DNA of 27,110 nt, from the IMG/VR virus record IMGVR_UViG_3300033981_000744, positions 1 to 27,110 of that record; one strand, 5' to 3'. Both the position numbers and the translations under genes were made by a program. This stretch comes from a virus. This document shows, one piece after another, positions 3,680 through 13,485 of the stretch (position 1 is its first letter; each line of letters begins with the position of its first letter). Under the pieces are notes generated by a model. It was not told where the DNA came from, did no database searches, and saw only the letters and a program-made list of their open reading frames with translations.

Positions 3680-3910
3680 GGACGTGAAGGAAGTAGGGTA
3701 TTTGTTTGTTGCCTCGTATGCGGGCGGATGGTCGGGCGGTGACATGTGTTGAAGTAATTAGGGTAGTGTTGTTGGCAACGATGACATGGTGATGATGTGC
3801 TTGAGTGCATGTGCTTGGACGCATGTGTTGAAGTATTGTTGTTGTGTTGTCGTTGCTGATGACATGCTTTAGTGCATGTGTTCATGGTCGTGGACGTATG
3901 TGTTGAAGTT
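3680..3910 (+). repeat. Tandem copies of the GGACGTATGTGTTGAAGTA motif
   Basis: Copies start at about 3680 (degenerate), 3740 (degenerate start), 3817 and 3892; the last two are near-identical 19-mers. The sequence between them is also partly repeated (GACATG...TNAGTGCATGTG), giving long units of about 75-79 bases. Further single copies precede the genes at 4314, 5194 and 6577. This looks like a binding site array or origin iterons combined with an early-gene control signal. Confidence 0.65.
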
Positions 3911-3977
3911 GTTTGTTTGTCGTTGCCGTTCGGTAACGATTACCTAGTCATGCTACGGCATGGGAGAGTGAGTGAGT

Positions 3978-4112
3978 ATGTTGGAATTGTTGCAAGCACC
4001 GAAGCCTTTAACGGAGTTAGAGTTTGCTTTGCAGTTGAGGGCTGAGGCGAATATTCGCCGTGAAGCGGAAGTAGATGAGTTGATTGAGTTGATGAACGGT
4101 TACGCCGTTTAA
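3978..4112 (+). CDS. Small hypothetical protein, 44 aa
   Basis: A GGGAG ribosome site at 3962 and ATG 3978 open a 44-codon frame ending TAA at 4112. The product (MLELLQAPKPLTELEFALQL then an Arg/Glu-rich helix) is helical, acidic and rich in Leu and Glu, with heptad-like spacing toward the end. The G+T-rich codon usage matches the genes downstream. It lies directly after the motif array. The family is not recognised; it may be an early phage accessory peptide. Confidence 0.55.
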   Translation: MLELLQAPKPLTELEFALQLRAEANIRREAEVDELIELMNGYAV

Positions 4113-4138
4113 GTTTTGCCCGTTTCTCCTTGTGGGCA

Positions 4139-4182
4139 GGGTAGCGCTGGTGCGCTTGTTGAGGTTCAATTCCTCACTATCC
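4139..4182 (+). ncRNA. tRNA T-arm-like structure without anticodon arm
   Basis: TGAGG (4160-4164), TTCAATT (4165-4171) and CCTCA (4172-4176) form a canonical tRNA T arm: 5-bp stem, 7-base TTCRANY loop, GG-TTC...CC context. CTATCC (4177-4182) pairs with GGGTAG (4139-4144) as a 6-bp acceptor-like stem with one G-T pair. Between them GCGC-TGGT-GCGC (4144-4155) forms a small hairpin that shares one base. There is no D/anticodon arm combination, so it is not a normal tRNA. It may be a tRNA remnant or a tRNA-like RNA. Confidence 0.35.
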
Positions 4183-4207
4183 GCAATACGGTAGCATGTA
4201 TGTCCTC

Positions 4208-4226
4208 GGACGTATGTGTTGAAGTA
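4208..4226 (+). promoter_or_regulatory. GGACGTATGTGTTGAAGTA motif upstream of 4314
   Basis: This is an exact copy of the 19-bp consensus, 106 bases before the next start codon. A hairpin, TGTACG-TGAA-CGTACA (4269-4284), lies between motif and gene. Its placement upstream of a gene, rather than within one, supports a regulatory role. Confidence 0.5.
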
Positions 4227-4313
4227 GAATATTGAATGGTGGTTGTGGCATGGTGCTACGATATTAGATGTACGTGAACGTACAGCCGTTCCCTAGAGTG
4301 GAAGGACACTTTA

Positions 4314-4565
4314 ATGGCTAAGAAATCAACAAAGACAGCAACACCAACAATCGTAGGTCGCTTTGCGAAGATTGACAAGGATTGGGCTGTTGCGTTTTCT
4401 GCAAGTACCCCAATCAAGGTTGGTACGATTGTTACGGTTATGACCGCTGACAAGCGTGAGAAGCAAGTTCGCACCAATTCTGAAGGTGTTGTGTTGTTTG
4501 ATGTGAAGTCGGGTACGGTCATGAATGAGATTTTCTACACGTTTGACCGTGTGGCAAGCAAGTAA
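4314..4565 (+). CDS. Small hypothetical protein, 83 aa
   Basis: GAAGGA precedes ATG 4314. The product starts with a Lys/Thr-rich tail (MAKKSTKTATP), followed by alternating beta-prone segments (TIVGRFAKIDKDWAVAFS, GTIVTVMTADKREKQVRT, GVVLFDVKSGTVMNEIFYTF). That pattern suggests a compact beta-barrel or OB-like fold. It stands alone, with its own copy of the 19-bp motif and a leader hairpin upstream and a structured non-coding stretch downstream. It is probably an early gene. No family is recognised and no enzymatic residues are apparent. Confidence 0.65.
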   Translation: MAKKSTKTATPTIVGRFAKIDKDWAVAFSASTPIKVGTIVTVMTADKREKQVRTNSEGVVLFDVKSGTVMNEIFYTFDRVASK

Positions 4566-4799
4566 AACCTAAAGGGGTTTATGGGTTCGGGCATGTGCCG
4601 AGTTTGTGGGGTTCATAACCTTGCCGAACCGCTAGCGTGTGTGGTAGTATCATGCACGTGGGAGATAGTGTCTCCGCAAGGTTAGTCAGTAGGGTTAGTT
4701 TCCTATAATCTGATTATGTTGTGAATCACTGCGGGTAGCGGGCTATAATACACCCCCGCTACCCGTAAAAGGATACATTCATTATATGAAAGGACAATT
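4566..4799 (+). other. Structured non-coding stretch, candidate ncRNA or leader
   Basis: No gene is seen. Potential structures follow one another: AAACC/GGTTT at 4565-4580 (weak terminator-like), GGTTCGG (4584-4590) with CCGAACC (4624-4630) enclosing GGTT-CAT-AACC (4610-4620), GGAGA-TAGTG-TCTCC (4661-4675), and an 11-bp perfect inverted repeat at 4732-4765. Two TATAAT boxes lie at 4704-4709 and 4744-4749. The density of stems suggests a regulatory RNA or the leader of the small genes at 4800-5089. Confidence 0.4.
4732..4765 (+). promoter_or_regulatory. 11-bp inverted repeat with TATAAT in its loop
   Basis: CGGGTAGCGGG (4732-4742) and CCCGCTACCCG (4755-4765) are exact reverse complements around a 12-base loop containing TATAAT (4744-4749). 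TTGTGA at 4719-4724 is a possible -35 with a long 19-base spacer. A dyad spanning a -10 box would suit repression by a dimeric regulator. The first downstream gene starts at 4800. Confidence 0.45.
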
Positions 4800-4946
4800 A
4801 TGAATCCATTAAAGAAAATGGCACGTGTAAAGTGTTACAAACTTAATCGTTGGTTAGGTGATTCAATTCCCGTAGCGTTATGGCATGCGATGTTTCGTAG
4901 ACATTGGGATATTGATTTGCTTGAGATGAATGATTGGTGGTTATAA
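4800..4946 (+). CDS. Small hypothetical protein, 48 aa
   Basis: AAAGGA (4789-4794) lies 5 bases before ATG 4800. The product is basic and aromatic (MARVKCYKLNRWLGDSIPVA, then WHAMFRRHWDIDLLEMNDWW) with five Trp in 48 residues. Its stop overlaps the next start by one base (TAATG), so the two small genes are coupled. No family is recognised. Being short, basic and Trp-rich, it may be an early host-interacting peptide, which is speculative. Confidence 0.55.
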   Translation: MNPLKKMARVKCYKLNRWLGDSIPVALWHAMFRRHWDIDLLEMNDWWL

Positions 4947-5089
4947 TGTTTAAGGTTAGAGATTTGTTGGGTTATGCGTTGGATATTGTTTGCCGTTTAA
5001 CGTGTCACCGTTGGTGTCACGTTATAGGTAAATGGTCGTATGATTTATTAGACCAGCCAACAAACCAGCGTGTTAATGAACATTTCTAG
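4946..5089 (+). CDS. Small hypothetical protein, 47 aa
   Basis: ATG 4946 overlaps the preceding stop (TAATG). The product has a Cys/His cluster (CRLTCHRWCHVIGKW) that might bind a metal, followed by a polar helix (SYDLLDQPTNQRVNEHF). It resembles the preceding protein in size, basic character and the LG-containing N-terminal half, so the two may be diverged duplicates. It ends just before another 19-bp motif copy. No family is recognised. Confidence 0.5.
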   Translation: MFKVRDLLGYALDIVCRLTCHRWCHVIGKWSYDLLDQPTNQRVNEHF

Positions 5090-5101
5090 GTACACGGACG
5101 T

Positions 5102-5120
5102 GGACGTGCGTGTTGAAGTA
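5102..5120 (+). promoter_or_regulatory. GGACGT...GTGTTGAAGTA motif upstream of the AAA+ gene
   Basis: The copy GGACGTGCGTGTTGAAGTA has one additional GGACGT directly in front (from 5097) and lies 92 bases before ATG 5194. A small GCCC-TAGTC-GGGC stem follows at 5161-5173. It is placed like the other copies, upstream of an early gene. Confidence 0.5.
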
Positions 5121-5193: not shown

Positions 5194-6480
5194 ATGGCAG
5201 GGAAGGCTATGAATATTGTTCGTGTTGATTGCACGGAAAGAAAAGCGTATGTTTTATTGGCTAGTGGAAAAGAATATCCATACGAAATTAGGTGGTTGGA
5301 CAAAAACACGCTAATTGTTATGTATAAACGTGCTTTTGGATTGACTTGGGTTGGTAAACCGATGGCGAAAACGAAAGATGAGGTTCTTGCGACAGTATTG
5401 CAAGCGTGCAACGATTGTGTTGCTCGTGGTGTAACGATGTTGCATGTTACTCAGCCAGTTCCGCCAGTTATTCCTCAGCCGTCACAACCTTCGTTTGTGC
5501 CGTCTGTGCCGACTGGTGATAGGGTTGCTAACGCTGTTCGTGACGTGATTCAGGACGCTCTGCGGTCTGTTGGCGTAGACGAAGATGCGGTGCGCAAGTT
5601 GATTGAGTCAGCATTAACGGAAGAACGTTCATACGTTAGGGAGTTGTTACGTGATGTTCGTCCGTTGGTTACTAACGTGGTTTTGCCGACTGGTGAAACT
5701 CGTCCCGTGACTGGTTTGACTCATGAGATATTCCCTAAGGTTCTTCGTGCGGTTTCTTGCGGTGAACATGTGTGGATGACTGGTAGCGCTGGTGTTGGCA
5801 AATCTAAGATTGCCCGTCAGGTTGCGGAGTCGCTCGGTGTTGCATTTAGTGCAGAGCCGTTCAATTCGCAGTCATCTAAAGCGGATATCAAAGGCTACAA
5901 GGCTATTAGCGATAACCTGTATCAGTCTACGGGGTTTCGTGACCGTTATGAACATGGTGGCGTGTTCTTGATGGACGAAATTGACGCTAGTAATCCGAAT
6001 ATTTTGACCGTGTTGAACGATGCGTTATCTAACGATAGCATGTCGTTTCCTGACGGTATGATTAAGCGTCACCCACAGTTTGTTGCGATTGCTGCAGCGA
6101 ACACGTGGGGTAATGGTGCTACTGCAGAATATGTTGGTCGTGCCCCGATTGATGGTGCTACGATTGACCGTTTCACGATGATGCACGTTAAGATTGATGA
6201 ACGCCTTGAGACTGAGTTGGTGCGTGGTACGGGTTTGAATATGGAACATGGTTCAACGTGGTTGAATATTGTGCGTACTGCACGCCGTAACGTTGATACT
6301 CATGGTCTGAAGGTGATTGTGTCGCCTCGTGCTAGTGTTGGTGGTGCTAAGTTGCTTGCTGGTGGGTTCACTTGGCAGGACGCTATTGACATGCGTTTGC
6401 TTAAAGGTGTCAAACCTGATATCGTTAGCAAGGTTATGGAATCGGTTATCGTACCCAAAGGTTCGCCAGTAGAAGTGTAA
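5194..6480 (+). CDS. CobS/MoxR-like AAA+ ATPase
   Basis: This 428-residue protein has Walker A GSAGVGKS (197-204), Walker B VFLMDEID (257-264), a sensor-1-like AAANT (300-304) and a DRF arginine-finger-like segment near 325. This is the arrangement of the MoxR/CobS class of AAA+ ATPases, which remodel proteins or insert cofactors and usually work with a VWA-domain partner. Residues 1-80 form a separate small domain, joined by a Pro-rich linker (86-106) and a helical stretch. AGAAAGGG precedes ATG 5194. The next gene (6577) encodes a plausible VWA-like partner. The substrate is unknown. Confidence 0.85.
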   Translation: MAGKAMNIVRVDCTERKAYVLLASGKEYPYEIRWLDKNTLIVMYKRAFGLTWVGKPMAKTKDEVLATVLQACNDCVARGVTMLHVTQPVPPVIPQPSQPSFVPSVPTGDRVANAVRDVIQDALRSVGVDEDAVRKLIESALTEERSYVRELLRDVRPLVTNVVLPTGETRPVTGLTHEIFPKVLRAVSCGEHVWMTGSAGVGKSKIARQVAESLGVAFSAEPFNSQSSKADIKGYKAISDNLYQSTGFRDRYEHGGVFLMDEIDASNPNILTVLNDALSNDSMSFPDGMIKRHPQFVAIAAANTWGNGATAEYVGRAPIDGATIDRFTMMHVKIDERLETELVRGTGLNMEHGSTWLNIVRTARRNVDTHGLKVIVSPRASVGGAKLLAGGFTWQDAIDMRLLKGVKPDIVSKVMESVIVPKGSPVEV

Positions 6481-6519
6481 CGTTCGTGACTACTAGTTCA
6501 CGTTCGTATCCTTCCCTGC

Positions 6520-6550
6520 GGACGTGGACTAGTATGTTAAATTATTAGGG
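6520..6550 (+). promoter_or_regulatory. Diverged GGACGT-TGTTGAAGTA motif upstream of 6577
   Basis: GGACGTGGAC is followed by TAGTATGTTAAATTATTAGGG, aligning with the copy at 5096-5125 (GGACGTGGAC then TGTTGAAGTAAT). It is the only notable element between the AAA+ gene and its neighbour. TTCCCT (6512-6517) and AGGGAA (6547-6552) flank it as an inverted repeat. Confidence 0.4.
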
Positions 6551-6576
6551 AAACAACAACTACGATTGGAGATATT

Positions 6577-7431
6577 ATGAGACAGTTTATACATGATTAT
6601 GTTAGTCCGTCAGGTACAGTTAAGACTGGCGTTTGGGTTGAAGAATATGATACACTGGCAGATTTGTTGGTGGACGCTAAAAGCAACAAGAAACGCAAGT
6701 CGTCTGATAAACGTGATAGACCTGATTGGCGTGGGTCTGATAGTTTGGACGAGGCTTGCGATTTGGGTACACGTGGTTGGCATGATATACGTCCTGAGGT
6801 TGATAAGTTGATTAACTCGTTGGATAACATCATCAGCGCAACGTTTGGTAACTTGTTTGAGACCAAGTTCAATATTACTGGCGAGTCAGGCGATATTGAC
6901 CGTTATCTTATGGGTGACCCTGAGTGTATGATTGATTATGTTGATGTGCCACAAACACGCATGGGGCGTGTTGTGCGATTACTGGTCAATGGTACTGTCA
7001 ATAGCGGTGTTTCAGCAGAGACAATCAAGCAACGTGGTGCGATGATATGTTCATTGGTTGATATCATTAATCGTTTGGGTGTCGGTGTTGAGGTTTATAG
7101 CGAGATTGCAACTTCTAGTAGCAACAAATATCATAGTATGCTCACGAAATTGCATGATTCGCAACAGTTGTTGGACATTGATAATTTGATGTTTGCAATT
7201 GCTCACCCGTCTATGCTTAGACGTATCTCGTTTTCTAACATGGAGATGTCTAAGTGGGAAGAAGCGAAGAAAATTATTGGTGGTAGTTACGGTTCAGCGT
7301 CTAATTGCAAAATGAAATCGCATGTTAATGCGGATATTGTAATTGATAACTTTGAGTCAGGCACTGGTGATTTTGAGGAAGATGGTATGAAGTTCATTAT
7401 GTCTACGATTACAGGATTGGGGCTGGTATGA
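6577..7431 (+). CDS. VWA-like partner of the AAA+ ATPase (DUF7192-like)
   Basis: The 284-residue product contains GDIDRYLMGDPECMIDYVDV (about 105-125), then a strand (RVVRLLVNGTVNSG), a helix (ETIKQRGAMICSLVDIINR) and a strand (GVGVEVYSEI). This pattern matches a Rossmann-like VWA domain with a degenerate metal site: TVNSG stands where DxSxS would be. I recall this as the DUF7192-type family found beside CobS-like ATPases in phages; the label needs checking. GGAG precedes ATG 6577. Following the AAA+ gene, it fits a MoxR-VWA pair that would remodel a protein target. The N-terminal 60 residues are Lys/Asp-rich and flexible. Confidence 0.65.
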   Translation: MRQFIHDYVSPSGTVKTGVWVEEYDTLADLLVDAKSNKKRKSSDKRDRPDWRGSDSLDEACDLGTRGWHDIRPEVDKLINSLDNIISATFGNLFETKFNITGESGDIDRYLMGDPECMIDYVDVPQTRMGRVVRLLVNGTVNSGVSAETIKQRGAMICSLVDIINRLGVGVEVYSEIATSSSNKYHSMLTKLHDSQQLLDIDNLMFAIAHPSMLRRISFSNMEMSKWEEAKKIIGGSYGSASNCKMKSHVNADIVIDNFESGTGDFEEDGMKFIMSTITGLGLV

Positions 7432-11989: not shown

Positions 11990-12904
11990 ATGATAGACGA
12001 CAAACTGTTAGATAACTTTATAAAACTATTTCGTGGTCGTGGTGACGTGTACGGCATGGACAGTGGGGGCTGTGCCAAGTTACCGCTTAATGTTGGCACA
12101 TTTGAACGACACTTAAACGGGTCAGAACGTATCGGCGTATATCCGATTGTTCCAATCAACGGTCAAGCATCCGTAGTGTGGGGCTGTTCAGACTTTGATT
12201 TAGGCTTAGAACAATCTTTACATCAAGCACGACAACTACATGACGCATTACAGGCAGGTGGTGTCACATCATGGATAGAACGTTCACGTTCCAAAGGTTA
12301 CCATGTTTGGGTGTTTGCCACAGAACCAGTGTCCGCTGAGATTATGCGTAACATGTTATTGGCTGCGCACCAAGTTGCCGAAGTGCCAGCAACAGAAGTG
12401 AACCCTAAACAAACCACATTACGACACGGACAGTACGGCAACTATGTTCGTTTACCTTACCCTAATTACGCTGACGAAACAACACACAACCAGCGTGTTC
12501 TTAACCCTAACGACTTTCAATCAGTTCTACATATTTGCGACTTTGTTTCTATGGCTATCGCCAACCGCACTACACCAGCCGACATCGCACGGCTTGCTGC
12601 ACATTATAAACCCATAATCAAACCCACACCTGGGATTATGCCCACAGAATATGATGCCACATTAGACGAGGCTATGCAAGTTCTGTCTCCGCTAGGTAAA
12701 GTCATTTGGCGTGACGGACCACTACCGTCCAAAGACCGTTCATCAACCCTAGCCAAACTCGGTTACGAGTGTGTCAAAACAGGACTCAACCCTAGTCAAA
12801 CCAAAATCATTCTCAAAACCGCTGACAAGCGGTGGGGTAAATATCATTTACGTGCTAACGGCGAACTAGAAATAGACAAACTAGTTATACGAGTACACTC
12901 ATGA
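11990..12904 (+). CDS. Archaeo-eukaryotic primase, TOTE type
   Basis: The 304-residue protein shows the AEP catalytic pattern: SDFDLG with Asp68 and Asp70, then SRSKGYHVWVF with the S-x-H-type triad (His105), followed by EVNPKQTT and GNYVRLPYP. These motifs match the TOTE-conflict type primase family used by many phages instead of DnaG. It would lay down primers on DNA unwound by the adjacent helicase. The C-terminal third (about 215-304) looks like a helical, PriCT-like accessory domain. AAAGGGGG precedes ATG 11990. It overlaps the next gene by 4 bases. Confidence 0.8.
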   Translation: MIDDKLLDNFIKLFRGRGDVYGMDSGGCAKLPLNVGTFERHLNGSERIGVYPIVPINGQASVVWGCSDFDLGLEQSLHQARQLHDALQAGGVTSWIERSRSKGYHVWVFATEPVSAEIMRNMLLAAHQVAEVPATEVNPKQTTLRHGQYGNYVRLPYPNYADETTHNQRVLNPNDFQSVLHICDFVSMAIANRTTPADIARLAAHYKPIIKPTPGIMPTEYDATLDEAMQVLSPLGKVIWRDGPLPSKDRSSTLAKLGYECVKTGLNPSQTKIILKTADKRWGKYHLRANGELEIDKLVIRVHS

Positions 12905-13485
12905 CAACAATACTTGCAATACAAGGCGACGATTATTGCGCCATAGGTTCAGACAGTCAATGGTCAGATGATTATGGTCGCATAGGCAAAATGACGCAAG
13001 CAAAAGTTGTTGCAGTCGGCAAATACTTTATAGGTGTAGCAGGTGACACACGAGGCGCAAACATTATTCAACACGTATTTAACCCACCACAACTACCACC
13101 AAAACTTAATGGCAACAAACTCACAAAATTTATGGTCAGCCAATTTATACCAACCTATAGAGAATGTTTAGAATCAAACGGTTTAGGACTACCACAATAC
13201 GAATCTAATCCCGCAGAAGCGTCCATAGACTCTTTGGTGTGCGCTAATGGTGTCATCTATCAAATAGACGCAGACTACAGTACAGAAATGGACGCAAACG
13301 GTTTGTATGCTATTGGTTCAGGTGCGCATTACGGGTTGGGTGCTATGCAAATGTATGCCAGCAACAAACGCATAACTCAACCATCAGCGAAACGTGTTCT
13401 GTTAAAATCATTATCTATTAGCGCCAGATTTGACAGCAACTCTGGCGCACCATTCCATACCTTTATACAGACTAGGAAAACATGA
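12901..13485 (+). CDS. Proteasome beta/HslV-like Ntn-hydrolase
   Basis: The 194-residue product begins Met-Thr-Thr-Ile-Leu-Ala. Thr2 would be the N-terminal nucleophile after Met removal, as in HslV (MTTIV). In mature numbering Asp17 is in GSDS, a Lys at 34 (MTQAKV) corresponds to the HslV catalytic Lys33 with a one-residue shift, and FIGVAGDT parallels IAGFAGGT. YAIGSGAHYGLGAM parallels the conserved IAIGSGGPYA segment. Length is close to HslV (about 175). It is embedded by 4-base overlaps between primase and RusA resolvase. Assembly, partner ATPase and substrate are unknown; other Ntn hydrolases of this fold are possible. Confidence 0.8.
   Translation: MTTILAIQGDDYCAIGSDSQWSDDYGRIGKMTQAKVVAVGKYFIGVAGDTRGANIIQHVFNPPQLPPKLNGNKLTKFMVSQFIPTYRECLESNGLGLPQYESNPAEASIDSLVCANGVIYQIDADYSTEMDANGLYAIGSGAHYGLGAMQMYASNKRITQPSAKRVLLKSLSISARFDSNSGAPFHTFIQTRKT

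Follow-up and report, generated by a model that had tools for sequence, protein, structure and literature searches.

The adjacent genes at positions 5194–6480 and 6577–7431 of the analysed window encode an AAA+ ATPase of 428 residues and a DUF7192 protein of 284 residues that probably constitute a remodelling machine of the NorQD/CbbQO/CobST type, in which the DUF7192 protein serves as an adaptor without the canonical MIDAS; we assign this reading a probability of roughly three in four. The window is the whole stretch of 27,110 bases that was examined, and corresponds to positions 1 to 27,110 of virus record IMGVR_UViG_3300033981_000744 (IMG/VR), whose relatives in the same database are mostly contigs of 36–39 kb, or pieces of such contigs. 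An earlier reading of this DNA, made from the sequence only, had placed an AAA+ gene next to the gene for the 284-residue protein, and the two open reading frames were found at the positions, and with the motifs, that it claimed. The families, folds, gene pairing and loss of the metal motif described below were computed for this pair, and the features are collected in Table 1.

The first gene encodes an intact AAA+ ATPase of the CobS/CbbQ/NorQ type (MoxR class). The protein belongs to PHROG 249 (E 5.5e-47), which is labelled 'porphyrin biosynthesis', and matches PF07728 (AAA_5) in Pfam with an E value of 3.6e-12. Its best single-sequence match in the PDB is CobS (phmmer, E 3.8e-10), and its profile also matches midasin. 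Walker A (residues 197–204), Walker B (D261/E262), sensor 1 (N303) and R326 are all intact, as the sequence-only reading had stated for the first three, and all 44 aligned relatives share K203, D261, E262, N303 and R326, as well as G197, G200 and G202 of Walker A. The AlphaFold2 model (pLDDT 87.0, pTM 0.61) has CbbQ and NorQ as its top Foldseek matches, and these two proteins account for ten VIA rows with Z values of 19.3–22.8, followed by rows for dynein, PspF and McrB with Z values of 16.9 or less. The model predicts a helix-2 insert with short strands at residues 235–236 and 243–244, in which G234 is conserved in 44/44 relatives and T246 in 38/44, and a pre-sensor-1 hairpin formed by residues 282–285 and 288–291. 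By comparison with NorQ, the phage protein displays an extra folded N-terminal domain (residues 1–84, window 5194–5445) that is confidently predicted in the model.

The 284-residue protein is a member of PF23822 (DUF7192; E 2.1e-43, 149.1 bits against a gathering cut-off of 27) and of PHROG 1909 (E 2.4e-42), both of which carry the database label 'unknown function'. Of 50,697 phage records, 332 or more contain the family, whose members come from herelleviruses of Staphylococcus and Listeria, from mycobacteriophages, from a crAss-like phage and from numerous uncultured phages of small size. A family alignment of 55 members was assembled from the window and IMG/VR loci. None of these members matched the Pfam VWA/CobT models PF00092, PF13519 and PF11775 in a scan with E values up to 1, in which 16 families were matched by any member; PDB sequences gave no significant match to DUF7192, and NCBIfam gave no direct sequence link to known VWA proteins. 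A comparison of profiles and folds was consequently needed.

The AlphaFold2 model of the DUF7192 protein (mean pLDDT 81.3, pTM 0.78) shows a VWA-like strand-helix-strand arrangement, with a strand at residues 132–138, a helix at residues 147–166 and strands at residues 170–181 and 184–193. The segment 211–224 is helical where the fourth VWA strand is expected, which may reflect a real alteration of the domain or an error of the model. In a Foldseek search of the PDB, the VWA domain of NorQ-bound NorD ranks first and second (E 1.3e-4 and 5.7e-4), and the corresponding VIA superpositions have Z values of 10.1 (rmsd 4.3, 200 residues) and 9.6 (rmsd 4.4, 206 residues). The MIDAS domains of Rea1/Mdn1 reach Z values of 7.9 and 7.0, and VWA domains outside the class of AAA+ partners score 6.2 or less among the matches listed. 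CobT chains are not found among the PDB fold matches listed for the model, an absence that excludes nothing. Among predicted viral structures, the first 12 places are taken by DUF7192 proteins or entries without a name, with CobT-like and VWA proteins ranked after them.

The DUF7192 profile also aligns with the VWA domain of phage CobT in hhalign, with a score of 56.1 and an E value of 1.8e-7 over 67 columns (approximately residues 135–200); past residue 200 the alignment is unreliable, which limits the placement of the loop-2 Thr and loop-3 Asp of a MIDAS. The CobT profile was built from the VWA part of the proteins of Gordonia phage GMA7, its relatives and HVTV-1, and the match was obtained after trimming to this part and with realignment off; hhalign with CobT proteins at full length yielded no usable match, and a global run scored lower (19.6). 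None of 200 column-permuted controls, restricted to columns with at least 50% occupancy, reached the real score, the best of them scoring 22.4; in an earlier permutation that included gappy columns, one unexplained outlier among 99 scored 134.6, above the real 55.5. A search for CobT_C in one bacterial phylum returned one weak match in 149 genomes and was not used. The similarities to NorD and to CobT bear out the VWA-like topology that had been read from the sequence, with a VWA-like core that is predicted by the model and a full sheet that is not certain. They support placing DUF7192 among the VWA domains that act as partners of CobS/CbbQ/NorQ-type motors.

In the sequence-only reading, TVNSG replaced the DxSxS metal site of VWA domains. 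The site is indeed degenerate, and the window protein lacks the MIDAS aspartate in either of two possible registers, but its position can be fixed only to within two residues. The hhalign register puts the aspartate of DxSxS at T140, that is, at TVNSG. The loop N138-G-T-V-N142 is the likelier equivalent because aspartate occupies position 138 in 6/55 members (asparagine in 37/55) and is absent from the counts listed for position 140, and because DxSxS, found in a single member of the 55 (L085), lies at residues 138–142 as DTSFS. The looser pattern [ND]x[ST]x[SN] is present in 18 of the 55 members. Judged from this alignment, loss of the metal site is a trait of the DUF7192 family and not a peculiarity of the window phage.

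Two further regions of the protein are conserved. The segment 92–127, which is modelled with low confidence in part and lies just N-terminal to the first VWA strand, contains many residues that rank among the best conserved in the family (G102, D106 and GDPECM), and a hydrophobic C-terminus is kept in most members.

Table 1. Features of the AAA+/DUF7192 locus, in window coordinates.
Feature	Position	Strand	Basis or remark
19-bp motif copy	5102–5120	+	92 bp 5' of the AAA+ start; 4 copies in the window, 0 expected
CobS/CbbQ/NorQ-type (MoxR-class) AAA+ ATPase, 428 aa	5194–6480	+	PHROG 249, PF07728, CobS and CbbQ/NorQ matches
Walker A GSAGVGKS, residues 197–204	5782–5805	+	Sequence; invariant residues among 44 relatives
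Helix-2 insert hairpin, residues 234–246	5893–5931	+	Two short strands in the model; conservation
Walker B region, ending in D261 E262	5962–5979	+	Both residues in 44/44
DUF7192 protein, 284 aa, VWA-like AAA+ partner	6577–7431	+	PF23822, AlphaFold2 model, NorD match, CobT profile
Proposed pore finger, residues 92–127	6850–6957	+	Conserved G102...D106...GDPECM118 block; analogy with NorD finger 403–448
VWA core strands and helix, residues 132–193	6970–7155	+	Predicted fold; profile match
Degenerate MIDAS-equivalent loop N138-G-T-V-N142	6988–7002	+	Other register: T140-V-N-S-G144
Hydrophobic C-terminal tail TITGLGLV	7405–7428	+	Tail conservation; proposed contact to post-sensor-1 loop by analogy with NorD 637–638

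The two genes are a conserved unit. Among the matches listed, an AAA+ gene is located less than 400 bases 5' of the DUF7192 ORF, on the same strand, in 77 of 77 IMG/VR contigs that have this ORF, which are mutually related, were retrieved via DUF7192 itself and include two ORFs that are cut short (L064 and L072). The count comprised 78 distinct contigs, one of its two source searches supplying the best 80 of 139 matches; the 78th contig (L011) has the AAA+ gene and ends 45 residues into the DUF7192 ORF. The pair was also found in 9/9 annotated phage loci examined and in 6/6 bacterial-genome loci, dependent sets that were retrieved by way of one member of the pair. The nine phage loci include some from phages of the staphylococcal, mycobacterial, Listeria, Gordonia, Tunturiibacter and crAss-like groups, and their Listeria and crAss-like DUF7192 members are remote. 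The sequence-only reading would have been contradicted by the lack of a VWA-like fold in the 284-residue protein or of co-occurrence of the genes in related phages; such a fold is predicted, and the two genes of the pair do occur together. In 51 loci, with counts that are lower bounds and a flank that differs between loci, the genes downstream of the pair encode homologues of the window's PD-(D/E)XK exonuclease (at least 32), DnaB-like helicase (at least 32), DUF3846 protein (at least 31), 203-aa protein (at least 30) and primase (at least 27).

Since the AAA+ ATPase is closest to CbbQ/NorQ and DUF7192 to NorD, both halves of one solved complex, NorQ-NorD (PDB codes 9qh6 and 9qhd; PMC13036017), are matched by fold, and independently. 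NorD and DUF7192 have the same order of parts, which consists of a helical part, a segment at the finger position, a VWA core and a hydrophobic C-terminus. They differ in size (638 residues in NorD versus 284) and in the MIDAS aspartate, missing from DUF7192, and the phage pair lacks the nitric oxide reductase context of NorQ-NorD. The available text of PMC13036017 and PMC9976466 describes a VWA finger (NorD 403–448) that occupies the NorQ pore, and the abolition of NorQ co-purification upon deletion of the last two NorD residues. In the portion available of PMC9976466, NorD MIDAS mutants keep NorQ binding, whereas activation of the target is abolished.

The conserved segment at the finger position and the hydrophobic C-terminus of DUF7192 lead us to propose the same ring-and-adaptor mechanics for the phage pair, for which we infer a hexamer, a finger in its pore, a remodelling activity and a target. 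The AAA+ protein would assemble into a hexameric ring, and one DUF7192 protein would bind to it as an adaptor. The position of residues 92–127 is suggestive of a NorD-like finger, which would enter the ring pore and meet the helix-2 inserts; the insert at residues 234–246 is the predicted contact, by analogy with the role given to the NorQ H2i in the available text of PMC13036017. The hydrophobic C-terminus of DUF7192 would hold the post-sensor-1 loop of the AAA+ protein, and ATP hydrolysis would turn or pull the adaptor, with the consequent remodelling of the bound target. As NorD MIDAS mutants still bind NorQ, loss of the MIDAS need not break the complex; as the same mutations abolish target activation, a MIDAS-less partner must differ in its target binding. 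Nearly all members of the DUF7192 family have lost the aspartate, so that the canonical MIDAS metal would be unusable for this purpose and the target would be held by another surface of the protein. Because the pair opens a block of replication genes, a phage or host protein that acts during genome replication is the probable target. A wider proposal, in which DUF7192 proteins represent a widespread phage class of metal-free VWA adaptors that form, with a CobS-like ring, a finger-in-pore twisting machine that no longer relies on a metal for target binding and is specialised for remodelling a replication or host-takeover complex and not for metal insertion, is tentative and, in our estimation, somewhat unlikely.

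The arrangement of the pair has other counterparts. In the CobS-CobT pairs of phages and archaeal viruses (Gordonia phage GMA7, HVTV-1), a CobS-like AAA+ gene is closely followed by that of a VWA protein whose core resembles that of DUF7192 at the profile level. By contrast, these CobT-like proteins are long (607 and 743 aa), compared with approximately 280 aa in DUF7192, and retain an intact DxSxS (DASGS in GMA7, DRSSS in HVTV-1) that DUF7192 lacks. The jumbo-phage pair of a MoxR AAA+ and a vWA co-chaperone is similar by its description in the available text of PMC7824862, although its vWA domain is fused to a metallopeptidase and DUF7192 is not. Midasin/Rea1 is related to the pair through the AAA+ profile and through the Rea1 MIDAS match to the DUF7192 model (Z 7.9), but is a single giant eukaryotic protein with a role in ribosome assembly.

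The CobST likeness brings in a different function, in which the pair is a phage CobST that raises cobalamin synthesis together with a host CobN, as proposed for archaeal tailed viruses. The label of the AAA+ family, CobS as the best PDB match and the VWA core common to DUF7192 and phage CobT are consistent with a chelatase; the available text of PMC8651126 proposes the hijacking of host CobN by CobST of tailed viruses, that of PMC12282133 reports a rise of host cobalamin pathways in Listeria infected by a P100-like phage, and a Pecentumvirus record has the AAA+/DUF7192 pair. However, the AAA+ protein scores 35.4 bits with the NCBIfam CobS equivalog, far from its cut-off of 558.55, CobN was found in 0/36 phage records (some of them fragments; the host may have a CobN), DxSxS is missing from 54/55 DUF7192 members and the pair is grouped with replication genes. 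With the CobS cut-off missed, no CobN and the MIDAS motif lost, we regard a cobalt chelatase as quite improbable. Replication genes following on the same strand, and virion-like genes confined to the minus strand of the window, also argue against a virion assembly chaperone, which we consider unlikely, even though such a role has been suggested for MoxR-vWA pairs of jumbo phages and reported for Acidianus two-tailed virus (PMC7824862, in the part available), and 28 of the 51 loci counted have a homologue of the terminase small subunit on the opposite strand, about 5 kb upstream.

The sequence-only reading had further called an unfoldase-peptidase axis with an HslV-like peptidase (12901–13485) conceivable. 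In the form considered here, the AAA+ protein would feed substrates to this peptidase and DUF7192 would act as the substrate adaptor. The peptidase ORF is real (PHROG 1040, E 9.6e-17) and belongs to the same strand block as the AAA+ gene, but such a gene is present in only 11 of 35 DUF7192 records, which were chosen for carrying the pair, and the pair persists without it; a search of 37 with a profile of the HslV-like family recovered these 11 and, in addition, two bacterial chromosomes. The match of the AAA+ protein to HslU is at chance level (E 0.1), in contrast to its closeness to CbbQ/NorQ, and the available text of PMC9976466 argues against direct threading through the NorQD pore, which is plugged by the finger of the partner. 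The axis is not supported by co-occurrence, was rejected on this ground and appears highly implausible.

With respect to the expression of the proposed remodelling pair, the 19-bp motif GGACGTATGTGTTGAAGTA and its variants are clustered 5' of the AAA+ gene (window 3738–5120). Four copies with up to 3 mismatches occur, against none expected from 100 shuffles. Five of 12 relatives examined have a copy 90 to 92 bp ahead of the AAA+ start, all five of them close and one of the twelve (L001) being the sequence of the window itself, and the motif set as a whole is conserved in close relatives only. The claim that the motif controls the pair stands in part: where the motif lies, and the fact that close relatives keep it, are compatible with a cis element but say nothing of its timing, and the early expression suggested in the sequence-only reading is conjectural. 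The intergenic copy at 6526, between the AAA+ and DUF7192 genes, is degenerate (6 mismatches). Matches to sigma-70-type promoters near both genes are at chance level only, and the pair is not named in the examined text of published transcription data for staphylococcal and Listeria phages.

A search of the literature found no paper that names DUF7192 and no experiment on any DUF7192 protein. Phage MoxR-vWA pairs (PMC7824862) and CobST pairs (PMC8651126) are already in print, as seen in the available parts of both papers, and the titles and abstract openings retrieved describe no MIDAS-less version of either. The present comparison provides a structural identity and a testable mechanism for the DUF7192/PHROG 1909 family, which reaches lab-grown phages of Staphylococcus and Mycobacterium, and calls into question the 'porphyrin biosynthesis' label of the partner AAA+. 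Moreover, nature here supplies the comparison needed to ask whether MoxR/VWA machines can operate without the MIDAS metal.

Several minor observations were made on these proteins and loci. In GEPECM of the window protein (residues 113–118, window 6913–6930), the conserved cysteine is replaced by histidine in several relatives (PEHM, PDHM), an exchange that may hint at a metal-related or redox function. The HslV/proteasome-like ORF at 12901–13485 begins with MTTI; removal of the methionine would presumably expose an N-terminal threonine, as in HslV. The mycobacteriophage-type loci L084, L089, L090 and L091 (5944–6792) contain a second DUF7192 gene about 4 kb downstream, without an adjacent AAA+ gene, and two DUF7192 copies are located beside the AAA+ gene in the bacterial contigs L098 (4845–6774) and L103 (4671–6860) (Trebonia, Spirosoma). 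A protein of the crAss-like locus L094 (4717–5520), annotated as 'transcriptional regulator', scores as DUF7192 with 31.3 bits against the cut-off of 27. In the phage K record (L096, 3736–4855), the AAA+ region is annotated as two genes and a 304-aa frame spans 3941–4852, the split being possibly an annotation or sequence break.
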